From: Acidobacteriota bacterium
Lineage (GTDB): Bacteria > Acidobacteriota > Terriglobia > Terriglobales > Acidobacteriaceae
Direction of reading: 5' to 3'
Length of the DNA stretch: 64,000 nucleotides
Assembly (NCBI GenBank): GCA_013289765.1
Contig: JABCZI010000011.1
Location: forward strand, 1 to 64,000
Shown here: piece by piece, positions 56,879 to 62,013 of the stretch
Layout: each line of letters begins with the position of its first letter
Numbering within the stretch: position 1 is the stretch's first letter
The notes under the pieces: generated by a model
Seen by the model: the letters and a program-made list of their open reading frames with translations, nothing else
Databases searched by the model: none
What the model was told of the DNA's origin: nothing
Program-made: the position numbers and the translations under genes

Positions 56879-57727
56879 TCAGGCCGCCACTGACTTCTGC
56901 ATGACCTTCATGTAGCTCTCCATCGACTGAGTTAGCTGCGCGTCGACCTCATCGGCGATGGTCATGACGTCAGGCAGGAGCAAGCTGAAATCCAGGAAAC
57001 TCATATTGTGTTGCAAGGTGCCAAATAGTGTCACCTGGAGTATTCGCGAATCATGCACCAGCATCGCTGGAGTGTAGCCTTGCTCATAACGCAGCTCGCC
57101 ATGAGCCACGGCGGCGGAGGAAAAAGCGGCCTCGCTGTCCTTGTTAGTGGCGGGGGGCTTTCGCAGGCGGACGATTAGATCTTCAATCAGTTTAGGTAGA
57201 TGCCCCGTGCGTTCCATGTCGCTGAGATGAATGTGATTGAGTTCGTTGCTCCCATTTACTCGCGTCAACCAGTCTTCCACTATACCGCCCGAACAGCGCT
57301 GCAGGATCGCGGCCACTCTTTCCTTTTCTATCCGCTCGGCAGGTTTGCGAGCCATCAGCTTATCTTCAAGGAGTTCCGCAACTTTCCCTGCTTCGAAGGG
57401 CTTGACCAGGATTTCGTCCGCTTCCAATAGGATAGCGGCCATGGCGCTCTGCACGTCGGGGTATCCGCTAACTAGCAGGGTCAACGCCTCGGGCTGTAAA
57501 TGGCGCATGGATGTAATCACGGTGAAACCATCGCCGGGGTTCGGCATGTGCAGGTCGGTAATGAGCACGTCGAAGGGCTCTACCGTAATCAGCTTCAAAG
57601 CTTCAGTTACGTTAGCCGCCGCGATTACCTCAAAACCTTTCTTTTCCAGGGTGGCGCTCATCATGGCGCGAACGGAGTCATCATCATCCACGAGCAGGAT
57701 TTTATGCACAACAGGAGGGTAAGGCAT
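56879..57727 (-). CDS. Response regulator with RsbRD-like helical output domain
   Basis: 282 residues. Receiver at 8-125: acidic cluster Asp14-Asp17 (LLVDDDDSVRAMM), phospho-acceptor Asp58 (DVLITDLHMPNPG), Ser87, Lys109 (ILVKPFEAGK). The C-terminal half is all-helical, with LQRCSGGIVEDWLTRV and HGELRYEQGYTPAMLVHDSR, resembling the RsbRD N-terminal/sensor-globin-like domain rather than a DNA-binding one, so the output is probably protein-protein. AGAGG nine bases before the ATG. No kinase gene is adjacent. Divergent from a candidate RNA. Confidence 0.85.
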   Translation of the reverse strand: MPYPPVVHKILLVDDDDSVRAMMSATLEKKGFEVIAAANVTEALKLITVEPFDVLITDLHMPNPGDGFTVITSMRHLQPEALTLLVSGYPDVQSAMAAILLEADEILVKPFEAGKVAELLEDKLMARKPAERIEKERVAAILQRCSGGIVEDWLTRVNGSNELNHIHLSDMERTGHLPKLIEDLIVRLRKPPATNKDSEAAFSSAAVAHGELRYEQGYTPAMLVHDSRILQVTLFGTLQHNMSFLDFSLLLPDVMTIADEVDAQLTQSMESYMKVMQKSVAA

Positions 57728-57771: not shown

Positions 57772-57802
57772 TTGAAGATGATCAAAATGGCACAGTTATT
57801 AA
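57772..57802 (+). promoter_or_regulatory. Possible promoter for the candidate RNA
   Basis: TTGAAG (57772-57777), 18 bases, TTATTA (57796-57801). A weak match; it would start transcription near 57808. Confidence 0.3.
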
Positions 57803-57807
57803 GATAG

Positions 57808-57945
57808 TTAGTAGGTATGGTTACTTCTGTACGTCGTAAACGCGGCCACGGGTTAGTGGCGGGAAACCGATCATTCGGACCCTTAATGGCCGCGGCACTA
57901 TGCCACACGACTCGGACCGGGCTCGAATGGGCCCGGCCTTTTTTT
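57808..57945 (+). ncRNA. Candidate structured RNA with intrinsic terminator
   Basis: CGCGGCCA (57841-57848) pairs with TGGCCGCG (57887-57894), an 8-bp outer stem. Inside, GGGT (57850-57853) pairs with ACCC (57879-57882), and either CGG-GAAA-CCG (57860-57869, a GNRA tetraloop) or CCGA-TCAT-TCGG (57867-57878) can form, but not both. Then GGCACTATGCC hairpin, then the terminator at 57917-57945. It is not a recognised riboswitch. A weak ORF of the same strand spans it, but the base pairing argues for RNA. Confidence 0.45.
57917..57945 (+). terminator. Intrinsic terminator after the candidate RNA
   Basis: CCGGGC (57917-57922), TCGAATGG loop, GCCCGG (57931-57936), CC, then seven Ts (57939-57945). 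The clearest rho-independent terminator of the window. Confidence 0.8.
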
Positions 57946-57996
57946 GAGGTTGGGAATAGAGCGTATGATGGGTCGTCCAAGAGAGTTGAGATATCA

Positions 57997-58206
57997 ATGT
58001 CAGCCAACAGCTTTGCGATTTGTTCTCATCGAATCGCTATCCTAATGTCGAGCGCGGGGCGTTTTCTGGAGTGCAGAGATTGCCAGCGGAACTTCGCGTT
58101 TCCAACGGGGACCCATTATCCGACCATAGCGAAACAGTTTGAATCTCATTCGTGTTCGCCGGTCCCTTCGAAAGATAATAAGGCGAGCAGCTCTCGCTCG
58201 AAATAG
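57997..58206 (+). CDS. Small zinc-finger-like protein
   Basis: 69 residues from ATG 57997 (an alternative ATG is 58045). The centre is GRFLECRDCQRNFAFPTGTH followed by YPTIAKQFESHSC: a CxxC and an H-x2-C end, an apparent zinc finger. The surrounding frame is open upstream to 57817. A purine-rich AGAGAGTTGAGA lies before 57997. It follows the candidate RNA and its terminator on the same strand. Function unknown. Confidence 0.5.
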   Translation: MSANSFAICSHRIAILMSSAGRFLECRDCQRNFAFPTGTHYPTIAKQFESHSCSPVPSKDNKASSSRSK

Positions 58207-60068: not shown

Positions 60069-60503
60069 ATGCCAAGGAACGGACAATCCGCGCACAAGAA
60101 TGAGGAGTTGCTAAAGCTGCGGGACGCGGCTTTGCAATTAGGAATCAGTTTCCCCACGATTAAGCAGTGGATTTACAAGAAAAAGCTGCGCAGCATTCGC
60201 ACGGCGGGGGGACACCACCGCATTCCACAGAGCGAAGTGGACCGGCTGCTTTTCAGAACGCGGGGTAGAACGGAGAAAGAACGCAACCTGGTAATCCGCC
60301 GCGTTAGCGGACGCAATCAACTGGTGGGACGAATCGATGCTGTCCGTATTAGCGGCCTGATGGCGGAGGTAAAGATTTCGATTGGGGGTCAGCAGATCAC
60401 ATCGATTATCACCGCGAGCTCGGCGCGGGAGATGCAATTGAAAGCCGGGCAGACTGCTGCCGCGCTCATCAAAGCCACCGAAGTGATGATTCTGCGAGTT
60501 TGA
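60069..60503 (+). CDS. Molybdenum-binding transcriptional regulator (excisionase/MerR-type HTH plus Mop/TOBE)
   Basis: 144 residues. Residues 12-58 are a winged helix-turn-helix like MerR or excisionase (LRDAALQLGISFPTIKQWIY, RTAGGHHRIPQSEVDRLL). Residues 77-143 are a Mop domain (SGRNQLVGRIDAVRISGLMA, ending ATEVMILRV). It resembles a small ModE substitute: molybdate or molybdopterin binding to the Mop part would alter DNA binding. It opens the cluster with the molybdopterin-fold protein, a stand-alone Mop protein and ModA. Confidence 0.85.
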   Translation: MPRNGQSAHKNEELLKLRDAALQLGISFPTIKQWIYKKKLRSIRTAGGHHRIPQSEVDRLLFRTRGRTEKERNLVIRRVSGRNQLVGRIDAVRISGLMAEVKISIGGQQITSIITASSAREMQLKAGQTAAALIKATEVMILRV

Positions 60504-60504
60504 C

Positions 60505-60990
60505 ATGAGAAATCGACTCTTCTTTTCGACCCTGCTCTTAACTCTGACCCTGCAGAGTGCGTTGGCGCGTTCGCAGCAGCTAACCATTCAAGATGAGACC
60601 GGAAAACAGGCTTCGCTAGCACGGGCAGAAGTTGAAGCCTTGCCGCATATCAAGGTAACTACCAGCACTTCTGGTGAGCCTGCAACTTTCGAGGGCGTCG
60701 CTCTTAAAGCAGTGTTGGAGAAAGCGGGAATTAAATTTGGGGAGACGCTAAAAGGCAAGCGGCTGGCGTCATGTATGTTGGTGGAGGCTGCTGATGGTTA
60801 TCGTGTTGTGATTGCGCTGCCCGAATTGGACCCGGCATTCACCGACAAGCAGATTCTTCTGGTTTTCCTGAAAGATGGCAAGCCGCTGAATGATAAGGAG
60901 GGCCCCTATCGGATCGTGATACCCGATGAGAAAAGAATGGCGCGCTGGGTGAGGCAGGTGACTGGCCTGAAGATCGTGGCTGTGCAGTGA
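60505..60990 (+). CDS. Small secreted molybdopterin-dependent-oxidoreductase-fold protein
   Basis: 161 residues. Signal peptide (MRNRLFFSTLLLTLTLQSAL). The mature part is a short form of the oxidoreductase molybdopterin fold: VTTSTSGEPATFEGVALKAV, LVEAADGYRVVIALPELDPA and NDKEGPYRIVIPDEKRMARW. It lacks the heme/dimerisation domains and the cysteine ligand of sulfite-oxidase types, so a full catalytic site is doubtful; it may bind molybdopterin or a related ligand. It starts one base after the HTH-Mop stop, so an operon is likely. Confidence 0.75.
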   Translation: MRNRLFFSTLLLTLTLQSALARSQQLTIQDETGKQASLARAEVEALPHIKVTTSTSGEPATFEGVALKAVLEKAGIKFGETLKGKRLASCMLVEAADGYRVVIALPELDPAFTDKQILLVFLKDGKPLNDKEGPYRIVIPDEKRMARWVRQVTGLKIVAVQ

Positions 60991-60996
60991 ACCGTC

Positions 60997-61203
60997 TCAG
61001 TCCTTTTGAATCATGACTTCGGTAGCTTTGACGACAGCGGTGACGGTGTCGCCCTTCTTGAGCTTAAGTTCGTCTGCGCTGCGGCGTGTGATGGCACTCT
61101 CGATGAGATTGTCTCCAACCCGAACTGCGACGTGGGCCATGATATCGCCCAGCTGGATTTCCTCGATCTTCCCGCGGAGTTTGTTTCTGGCTGAGATTGG
61201 CAT
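60997..61203 (-). CDS. Stand-alone Mop (molbindin) protein
   Basis: 68 residues, one Mop/TOBE domain: SARNKLRGKIEEIQLGDIMA, then LIESAITRRSADELKLKKGD and the end KATEVMIQKD. Such proteins assemble as hexamers storing molybdate or tungstate. It is encoded opposite to its neighbours. TATAAT lies six bases before the ATG on the minus strand, with no SD, so its mRNA is probably leaderless. Confidence 0.9.
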   Translation of the reverse strand: MPISARNKLRGKIEEIQLGDIMAHVAVRVGDNLIESAITRRSADELKLKKGDTVTAVVKATEVMIQKD

Positions 61204-61209
61204 GCACTC

Positions 61210-61215
61210 ATTATA
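61210..61215 (-). promoter_or_regulatory. -10 box TATAAT of the Mop gene
   Basis: Perfect TATAAT six bases before the ATG at 61203, placing the transcription start on the start codon. TTCATT is at the -35 position with a 17-base spacer. Confidence 0.55.
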
Positions 61216-61233
61216 AGCCCAGGTGAGAATTCA

Positions 61234-62013
61234 ATGAACGGTCGAAGATTGAGCCTGATCGCGATCATAGCGGCCAGCTTGATCCCGCAAGTAAGTGTCG
61301 CGCAAGAAATAACCGTGGCGGCCGCCGCCGACCTTCAATTTGCCATGCAAGATGTGGCCGCGCGATTCCAGAAGGAAACAGGGGAGACGGTGAAAGCGAT
61401 CTACGGTTCGTCGGGCAACTTCTTTCAGCAGATTCAGAATGGCGCTCCCTTCGATATGTTCTTCTCCGCCAACCTCGAATTCCCGAAGAAGCTGGAAGGC
61501 GCTGGATTGACCGATCCCGGAAGTTACCACCAGTACGCACGGGGCAAGATCGTGATCTGGGTTCCGAAAGAATCGAAAGTCGATCTGACTTCCGGGATGC
61601 AAGCCCTTCTCGATCCTTCCATAAAGAAGATCGCCGTTGCGAATCCGCAACACGCCCCCTATGGCCAAGCTGCCGTCGCGGCGATGCAGAAGGAAGGCAT
61701 TTATGAAAAGGTGAAAGATAAATTTGTTCTGGGCGAAAACATTTCTCAGGCAGCCTCGTTCGTGGTCTCGGGTGCGGCCGATGTCGGCATCGTAGCTCTG
61801 TCGCTTACGTTGGCTCCAAACATGAAGGACAAAGGCCGTTACACAAATATTCCGGCCGGCGACTATCCGCCGATTGAGCAGGCATGCGTCATACTTGGCT
61901 CATCAAAAAATAAAGAGACCGCCCGACAATTCTTGTCGTTCATGAAGACCGCAGCGATTGGCGATGTATTGAGGAGTTACGGTTTCGACGTACAAAGTAA
62001 TTCGGCTAAATGA
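61234..62013 (+). CDS. modA: ModA, periplasmic molybdate-binding protein
   Basis: 259 residues. Signal peptide (LSLIAIIAASLIPQVSVAQE). Type-II periplasmic fold with the oxyanion loops AAAADLQFAMQDVA, YGSSGNFFQQIQNGAPFDMF and GAADVGIVALSLT. It hands molybdate to the ModBC ABC transporter, but no modB or modC follows; a minus-strand gene does, so the permease must be elsewhere or absent. AGGTGAGAATTC precedes the ATG. Confidence 0.93.
   Translation: MNGRRLSLIAIIAASLIPQVSVAQEITVAAAADLQFAMQDVAARFQKETGETVKAIYGSSGNFFQQIQNGAPFDMFFSANLEFPKKLEGAGLTDPGSYHQYARGKIVIWVPKESKVDLTSGMQALLDPSIKKIAVANPQHAPYGQAAVAAMQKEGIYEKVKDKFVLGENISQAASFVVSGAADVGIVALSLTLAPNMKDKGRYTNIPAGDYPPIEQACVILGSSKNKETARQFLSFMKTAAIGDVLRSYGFDVQSNSAK

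Follow-up and report, generated by a model that had tools for sequence, protein, structure and literature searches.

A multi-copy family of structured RNAs in acidobacteria, probably under the control of a Crp-type regulator

Sequence comparison identifies positions 57808-57945 of a 64,000-nucleotide acidobacterial stretch (the window) as one copy of a real structured-RNA family, found in multiple copies per genome and restricted to acidobacteria in the collections that we searched. Covariation indicates that its P1 and apical helices are real RNA helices, and a Crp-type regulator probably activates the family. The reading that we favour, with moderate confidence, is that 57828-57945 would be a Crp/FNR-activated, independently transcribed and trans-acting small RNA (sRNA), belonging to a multi-copy family with a docking core.

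Results

Fold and parts of the window copy

The segment 57808-57945 folds with -60.8 kcal/mol, against -45.2±4.1 kcal/mol in 200 dinucleotide shuffles (z -3.84; 1/200 shuffles as good), and a terminator scan of both strands of 301 nt found one terminator, against 0.4±0.7 in shuffles. The first-pass annotation had described a structured RNA with its own terminator, and the fold, the terminator scan, the homologues and the covariation presented below all bear it out. Every stem that it listed is present, including a CGG-GAAA-CCG hairpin at 57860-57869, a GGCA/TGCC hairpin at 57894-57904, overlapping the variable stretch that separates P1 from the terminator, and the GC terminator itself. In the minimum-energy fold the outer stem takes the register 57842-57848/57887-57893. 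The true unit probably starts at about 57828 and not at 57808, since 57808-57827 contains the predicted -10 box and the initiation region.

Table 1. Features of the window copy and its surroundings.
Feature	Position	Strand	Details
Response regulator	56879..57727	-	Divergent; receiver PF00072, plus RsbRD_N exactly at cut-off
Predicted Crp/FNR-type operator	57779..57794	+	TGATCAAAATGGCACA; TGA-N10-ACA, of the TGT-N10-ACA class; read from sequence
Predicted -10 box	57816..57821	+	TATGGT, 21 nt after the operator
Predicted small RNA	57828..57945	+	118 nt; start placed from the -10 box and end from the terminator; fold -56.3 kcal/mol
P1, 5' strand	57841..57847	+	CGCGGCC, pairs with GGCCGCG at 57888-57894
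Conserved internal region, 5' side	57848..57858	+	AUGGGUUAGYG; ACGGGTTAGTG in the window copy; basis alignment A4
Middle helix	57850-57854 with 57878-57882	+	GGGTT/GACCC, present in the window copy
Variable apical hairpin	57859..57871	+	GAAA loop in the window copy
Conserved internal region, 3' side	57872..57887	+	CRUUCGGACCCUCAC; CATTCGGACCCTTAAT in the window copy; basis alignment A4
P1, 3' strand	57888..57894	+	Covariation in 51 cores and in 32 distinct unselected cores
Intrinsic terminator	57917..57945	+	8-bp GC stem (57917-57936) and T-run
Small CxxC ORF	57997..58206	+	69 aa; downstream; CxxC...H...C by eye; not part of the RNA

Copies and distribution

BLASTN against 60 relatives and the genome of the window itself returned homologues in the same genus (L002-L010). 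A first covariance model, R1, built from ten sequences with the terminator included, gave matches across the whole class, and a model of the core only, R2, built from 51 sequences, was used in its place. Among the R1 matches inspected for the core (L073-L090 lay outside this inspection), L068 and L072 had it, while L069, L070, L071, L093 and L094 had none and were dropped.

At E≤1e-3, R2 found copies in 30 of 45 genomes of the same genus, with one to eight per genome, so that the covariance search proposed in the first-pass annotation did recover homologues in acidobacteria. At E≤0.01, where some matches are weak, 43 of 398 genomes of the family and 9 of its 79 genera were positive. A phylum-wide draw of 396 genomes gave two positives, namely the genome of the window and a borderline one (E=0.0075). 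The former holds two copies, that of the window and a short one at C6:249416-249475. A genome of the same family that is 53% complete (G377) holds nine, and one of its stretches (L180, G377:C28:11622-13653) carries three cores inside about 2 kb. L107:7068-7188 holds a tandem pair of complete cores, placed back to back, and the promoter blocks usually seen upstream are missing there.

An exact pattern of the core, run over 84,980 GTDB genomes, hit 47 stretches, every one titled as acidobacterial (Ca. Sulfotelmatobacter, Acidobacteriaceae, Acidobacteria including gp1 and gp2 isolates, Terriglobales and Terriglobia). The same pattern had no match in viral contigs and the family had none in plasmids; for these two collections a plasmid or viral element is rejected.

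Conservation and covariation of the core

Alignment A4 comprises 51 cores, with identical cores counted once and most rows taken from the exact-pattern scan. It omits L129, whose apical loop is very long, L048 and L050, whose cores are shorter by one base, L051, which has a degenerate core, L003 (wrongly cut out), and L059, L064 and L072 (not carried over). The core consists of P1 (7-9 bp), an asymmetric internal loop AU/UCAC, the helix GGGUU/GACCC and a bulge C(N), beyond which lie an A-U, a G.U and a Y.R pair and then a variable apical helix.

In A4, 86.6% of the cells are paired, against 78.3±0.7% in shuffles (0/500 as high), and 108 cells show double changes, against 43.2±6.2 in shuffles and 16-38 in slid controls; these counts are not independent events, since the copies are related by descent. 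Double changes fall in 8 of the 9 P1 pairs and in 5 of the 6 apical-helix pairs. The invariance seen in A4 is inflated, because most rows entered it through the exact pattern. Since its conserved columns were thus partly fixed in advance, covariation was recounted on an unselected set: all 33 R2 matches (E≤1e-3) of six genomes, 32 of them distinct. In a plain alignment of this set, in which P1 and the middle helix were scored, 90.2% of cells are paired, against 84.3±0.9% in shuffles, with 35 double-change cells against 13.3±4.3 (slid controls 2-8), again in 8 of 9 P1 pairs. A model-fitted alignment of 34 matches, one of them weak (E 0.00065), gave 67 double-change cells against 26.8±4.9, and here too 5 of the 6 apical pairs changed on both sides. 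Compensatory changes, the test that the first-pass annotation had set for its RNA, are therefore abundant in both sets.

Of the 33 unselected copies, 28 retain GGGTTA, 23 retain GACCCTCA and 17 match the exact pattern, so the internal region is strongly conserved without being invariant. The middle helix shows one-sided changes only (G-C to G-U, U-A to U-G) and is broken in a few places. At the Y.R pair (columns 20/43, 51 rows), where Y was fixed by the search pattern in most rows and R was free, we counted U.G 21 times, C.A 19, U-A 9 and others twice; C-G never occurs, a pattern suggestive of wobble geometry. G-U exceeds A-C by 16 to 5 in the six inner P1 pairs, indicating the plus strand as given.

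The window copy itself lacks GACCCTCA, carries a C where 49 of the 51 A4 rows have T, and has ACGGGUUAG for AUGGGUUAG and UUAAU for UCAC. These deviations make it a somewhat divergent member of the family (R2 E 1.7e-9). The conserved AUGGGUUAG reads Met-Gly-stop, and its translation is not required, since in the window copy ACG replaces AUG.

Terminators differ between copies. Long ones, such as that of the window, have a separate GC terminator; in several short ones a T-run directly follows P1 on the 3' side. A script recognised a terminator in 21 of the 33 rows that bear an operator (see below), a count in which one row was cut short and some terminators visible by eye were missed.

Upstream promoters and the link to Crp

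The putative operator upstream of the window copy has the TGT-N10-ACA geometry of Crp/FNR operators; it is among the weaker ones (8/10) and deviates from the strict pattern. Class II activators sit at -41.5. With the start taken seven bases past the -10 box, the centre of the window operator (57786.5) falls at about -41.5, the arrangement to be looked for in an sRNA activated by Crp/FNR. A generic sigma-70 scan returned nothing at the predicted window promoter. Across the family, 33 of 61 rows, or 32 of 60 places, have an operator followed by TANNNT, the window copy among them, against 2.0% of order-1 shuffles, a rate that lacks independence, the operator consensus having been derived by eye from these very copies; within the 33, L123 is probably spurious, and L106 and L145 are one place seen twice. 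The sites have the form TGWRYA-N4-TGNACA or alike, with TANNNT after 21 (26 rows), 22 (6) or 23 (1) nt.

Since the other 28 of the 61 rows lack this operator-promoter, and most of them show another block upstream, the family cannot be defined by Crp control. Twenty-six copies were treated as lacking a Crp-type promoter, and 22 of them have a YGTATTG-like block 53-97 nt before the core; in short copies such as L105, L111 and L155 it reads by eye as CTACGGNNTTCRCYGTATTG, of which the GTATTG part is what recurs in the 22. A subgroup of copies (L097, L099, L104, L130 and L161) has a common 5' leader resembling CCTGAGAAGGCGGACAGCC, and in these the script recognised no GC terminator.

Genes for Crp-type proteins were sought with PF13545 in six genomes, and 83 rows were kept among the matches listed, excluding those below the cut-off. 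A gene with a Crp-type HTH lies within 5 kb of 9 of 33 RNA copies, where 0.76 would be expected (Poisson 1e-7, a value that is too optimistic because the loci are related). Split by promoter class, copies with such a gene nearby number 7 of 20 where the operator is present, 0 of 9 where the other block is, and 2 of 4 among the unclassified (operator versus other block, Fisher p=0.066). The case is weakest in the genome of the window, where neither of the two RNA copies has one within 5 kb; the window contig has no match above the cut-off, the nearest, below it, being about 37 kb off.

In 20 stretches around RNA copies (223 kb) we found 25 operator-like sites outside the RNAs, against 1.9 in shuffles (order-1 resamplings), in a count that covers both strands, doubles some palindromes and includes one site that is the opposite strand of the L193 copy's own operator. 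Nine of the 25 are followed by a -10 box at 21-22 nt, against 0.0 in shuffles, and nine fall in a single stretch, L189. No operator of the strict pattern occurs in the rest of the window or in control loci L011-L037, whose 80.5 kb would not be expected to yield many.

Neighbouring genes

The first-pass annotation had placed the RNA beside a response regulator, as PF00072 corroborates; the regulator gene is divergent, so the RNA is not its leader, although the gene may share the operator at 57779-57794. A homologue of it adjoins the RNA in nine loci, the window included. The small ORF downstream, which the same annotation called a zinc finger, does lie on the same strand and does contain CxxC...H...C by eye, but no Pfam family matches it at E≤0.01. 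Within its orthologue group four more loci (L048, L050, L051, L060) have a related CxxC ORF, and this is the only orthologue group in which the response regulator and the CxxC ORF adjoin the RNA.

The second copy in the genome of the window lies about 100 nt upstream of recO (identified by Pfam), and a recO-like neighbour was seen in seven loci in all. No neighbour common to all copies was found: the groups have the response regulator, the recO-like gene or others. At L008:2561-2639 a fluoride riboswitch lies close to an RNA copy, which is also flanked by two tRNA genes of equal score, one per side. Further along the window, 60069-62013 contains the gene of an HTH_17-TOBE protein, another TOBE-like ORF and one resembling a periplasmic binding protein, which by eye look like a molybdate cluster.

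Comparison with known RNAs

None of the Rfam 15 covariance models reached its cut-off in the window, in agreement with the first-pass annotation, which had recognised no known consensus. The window copy drew four matches, all far below the cut-offs (E 0.3-7.6), the L092 copy drew none at E≤10, and ten loci with copies yielded two tRNAs and the fluoride riboswitch of L008 only. A known Rfam family is rejected on these grounds for the copies examined.

FnrS-type sRNAs are the Crp/FNR-activated, Hfq-dependent sRNAs of enterobacteria. Our RNA resembles them in being short and intergenic, with its own terminator, behind a Crp/FNR-type site and in a genome with an Hfq gene: Hfq had matches in 6/6 genomes (weak only in G377, 53% complete), so that an encoded Hfq goes together with a Rho-independent terminator, as an Hfq-dependent sRNA would have it. 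It differs from them in belonging to a family that is multi-copy, seen only in acidobacteria and without an Rfam match, and in its conserved internal region. Three Crp-type proteins that we translated lack, by eye, an N-terminal cysteine cluster of the FNR kind. CsrB/RsmXYZ-type sRNAs also occur as several paralogues per genome, under the control of a regulator, and this the family shares with them; it differs in that CsrA was not found in the six genomes searched and GGA is not conserved.

Acido-1 (RF01686) and Acido-Lenti-1 (RF01687) are acidobacterial noncoding RNA candidates given without cis-regulatory assignment in a table of PMC2864571. Both are in Rfam, whose families all stayed below their cut-offs in the window. 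The same article presents Soil-1 and Solibacter-1, candidate RNAs from soil or Solibacter without Rfam accession, either of which may equal the acidobacterial family. Among the titles and openings of abstracts listed in a literature search, none names it. The family is apparently uncatalogued, in the sense that it is set apart from Rfam 15, and PMC2864571 may already describe it as Soil-1 or Solibacter-1.

Discussion

The findings would fit together as follows. In the class of copies to which that of the window belongs, transcription would be activated from -41.5 by a protein of the Crp/FNR family bound at 57779-57794. The resulting 118-nt RNA would fold into P1, the conserved internal region and the variable apical hairpin, and would end at its own terminator. 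It would most likely act in trans, for which the difference in neighbours between orthologue groups speaks. The conserved core is probably a docking site for a protein or a ligand, and the leader, apical loop and linker, specific to each copy, would make target or timing differ from one paralogue to the next. Neither a partner protein nor a conserved seed emerged from the comparison. Promoter, activator, start site and trans action are what we infer from sequence in this scheme; partner and targets are what we postulate.

A broader reading puts the weight on the internal region, which might be an RNA module of a new kind, be it aptamer, ribozyme core or dedicated protein-docking site, that this lineage has placed behind two or more unrelated types of promoter, one of them Crp-controlled. 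We entertain this tentatively, and deem it clearly less probable than the Crp/FNR-activated sRNA.

Less probable again, and on balance unlikely, is a ligand-sensing cis element (riboswitch or attenuator), whose aptamer would be the core and, in short copies, would double as the terminator before genes such as recO. The conserved internal region between covarying stems is what one would look for in an aptamer, several short copies do have the T-run after P1, the tandem pair in L107 is of a suitable kind, and the copy upstream of recO has homologous ORFs similarly placed in six other loci. Long copies, however, have a separate terminator, and in the regulator group the copies are divergent from the regulator gene. 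Downstream genes do not belong to any single family, nor was a shared function seen among them, most neighbours being without functional annotation. The first-pass annotation had seen in its mutually exclusive hairpins the layout of a switch, and this did not hold up for the alternative hairpin examined, CCAC/GTGG at 57846-57849/57856-57859: across the 51 cores 73.5% of its cells are paired, against 72.6±0.8% in shuffles, two of its four pairs fail (in 20/51 and 33/51 sequences), and its CCAC half is peculiar to the window copy. Conserved mutually exclusive pairing is rejected for this hairpin, the sole alternative considered.

Could the copies instead be a dispersed repeat at the DNA level, REP-like or a transposon end, that happens to resemble an RNA hairpin? 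Up to nine copies per genome, the clusters in G377 and the tandem pair in L107 would suit a repeat, and in G377 ORFs resembling resolvases and IS110 transposases by eye (L181:7176-9694, L184:9318-11129) lie within several kb of copies. Against it stand the excess of G-U over A-C in inner P1, a promoter-like block on one side with, in long copies, a terminator on the other, the synteny of the orthologue groups, and the lack of matches in plasmids and, for the exact pattern, in viral contigs. We judge a repeat to be quite improbable.

There is still less room for a coding explanation, in which the element would be a translated leader or the 5' part of a 129-aa ORF (57817-58206). The frame is indeed open across the RNA in the window, but at L048, L050, L051 and L060 the related ORF begins no earlier than where the RNA match ends, so the open frame is not common to those four loci; the changes track base pairs, the ORF has no Pfam match at E≤0.1, and the protein-coding conservation by which the first-pass annotation would have given up its RNA did not appear. 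The idea of a CsrB/RsmZ-type RNA that sequesters CsrA, prompted by the adjacent response regulator and by CGGAC, with GGA in the core of the window and many others, has a negligible chance of being right, since such an RNA needs CsrA and conserved GGA loops, and CsrA is found in 0/6 genomes searched (against 3/14 control genomes) and A4 contains the variants CGAC, CCGAC and CAGAC.

To our knowledge, little is known of the regulatory RNAs of peat and soil acidobacteria. The family described here combines strong covariation, no Rfam match and several copies per genome with a putative Crp-type activation at -41.5 that can be tested, and its conserved internal region should allow the binding partner to be found by pull-down. 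If the internal region did turn out to be a new module, these bacteria would have a multi-copy sRNA system in which one core is placed under many regulatory inputs and serves a single partner.
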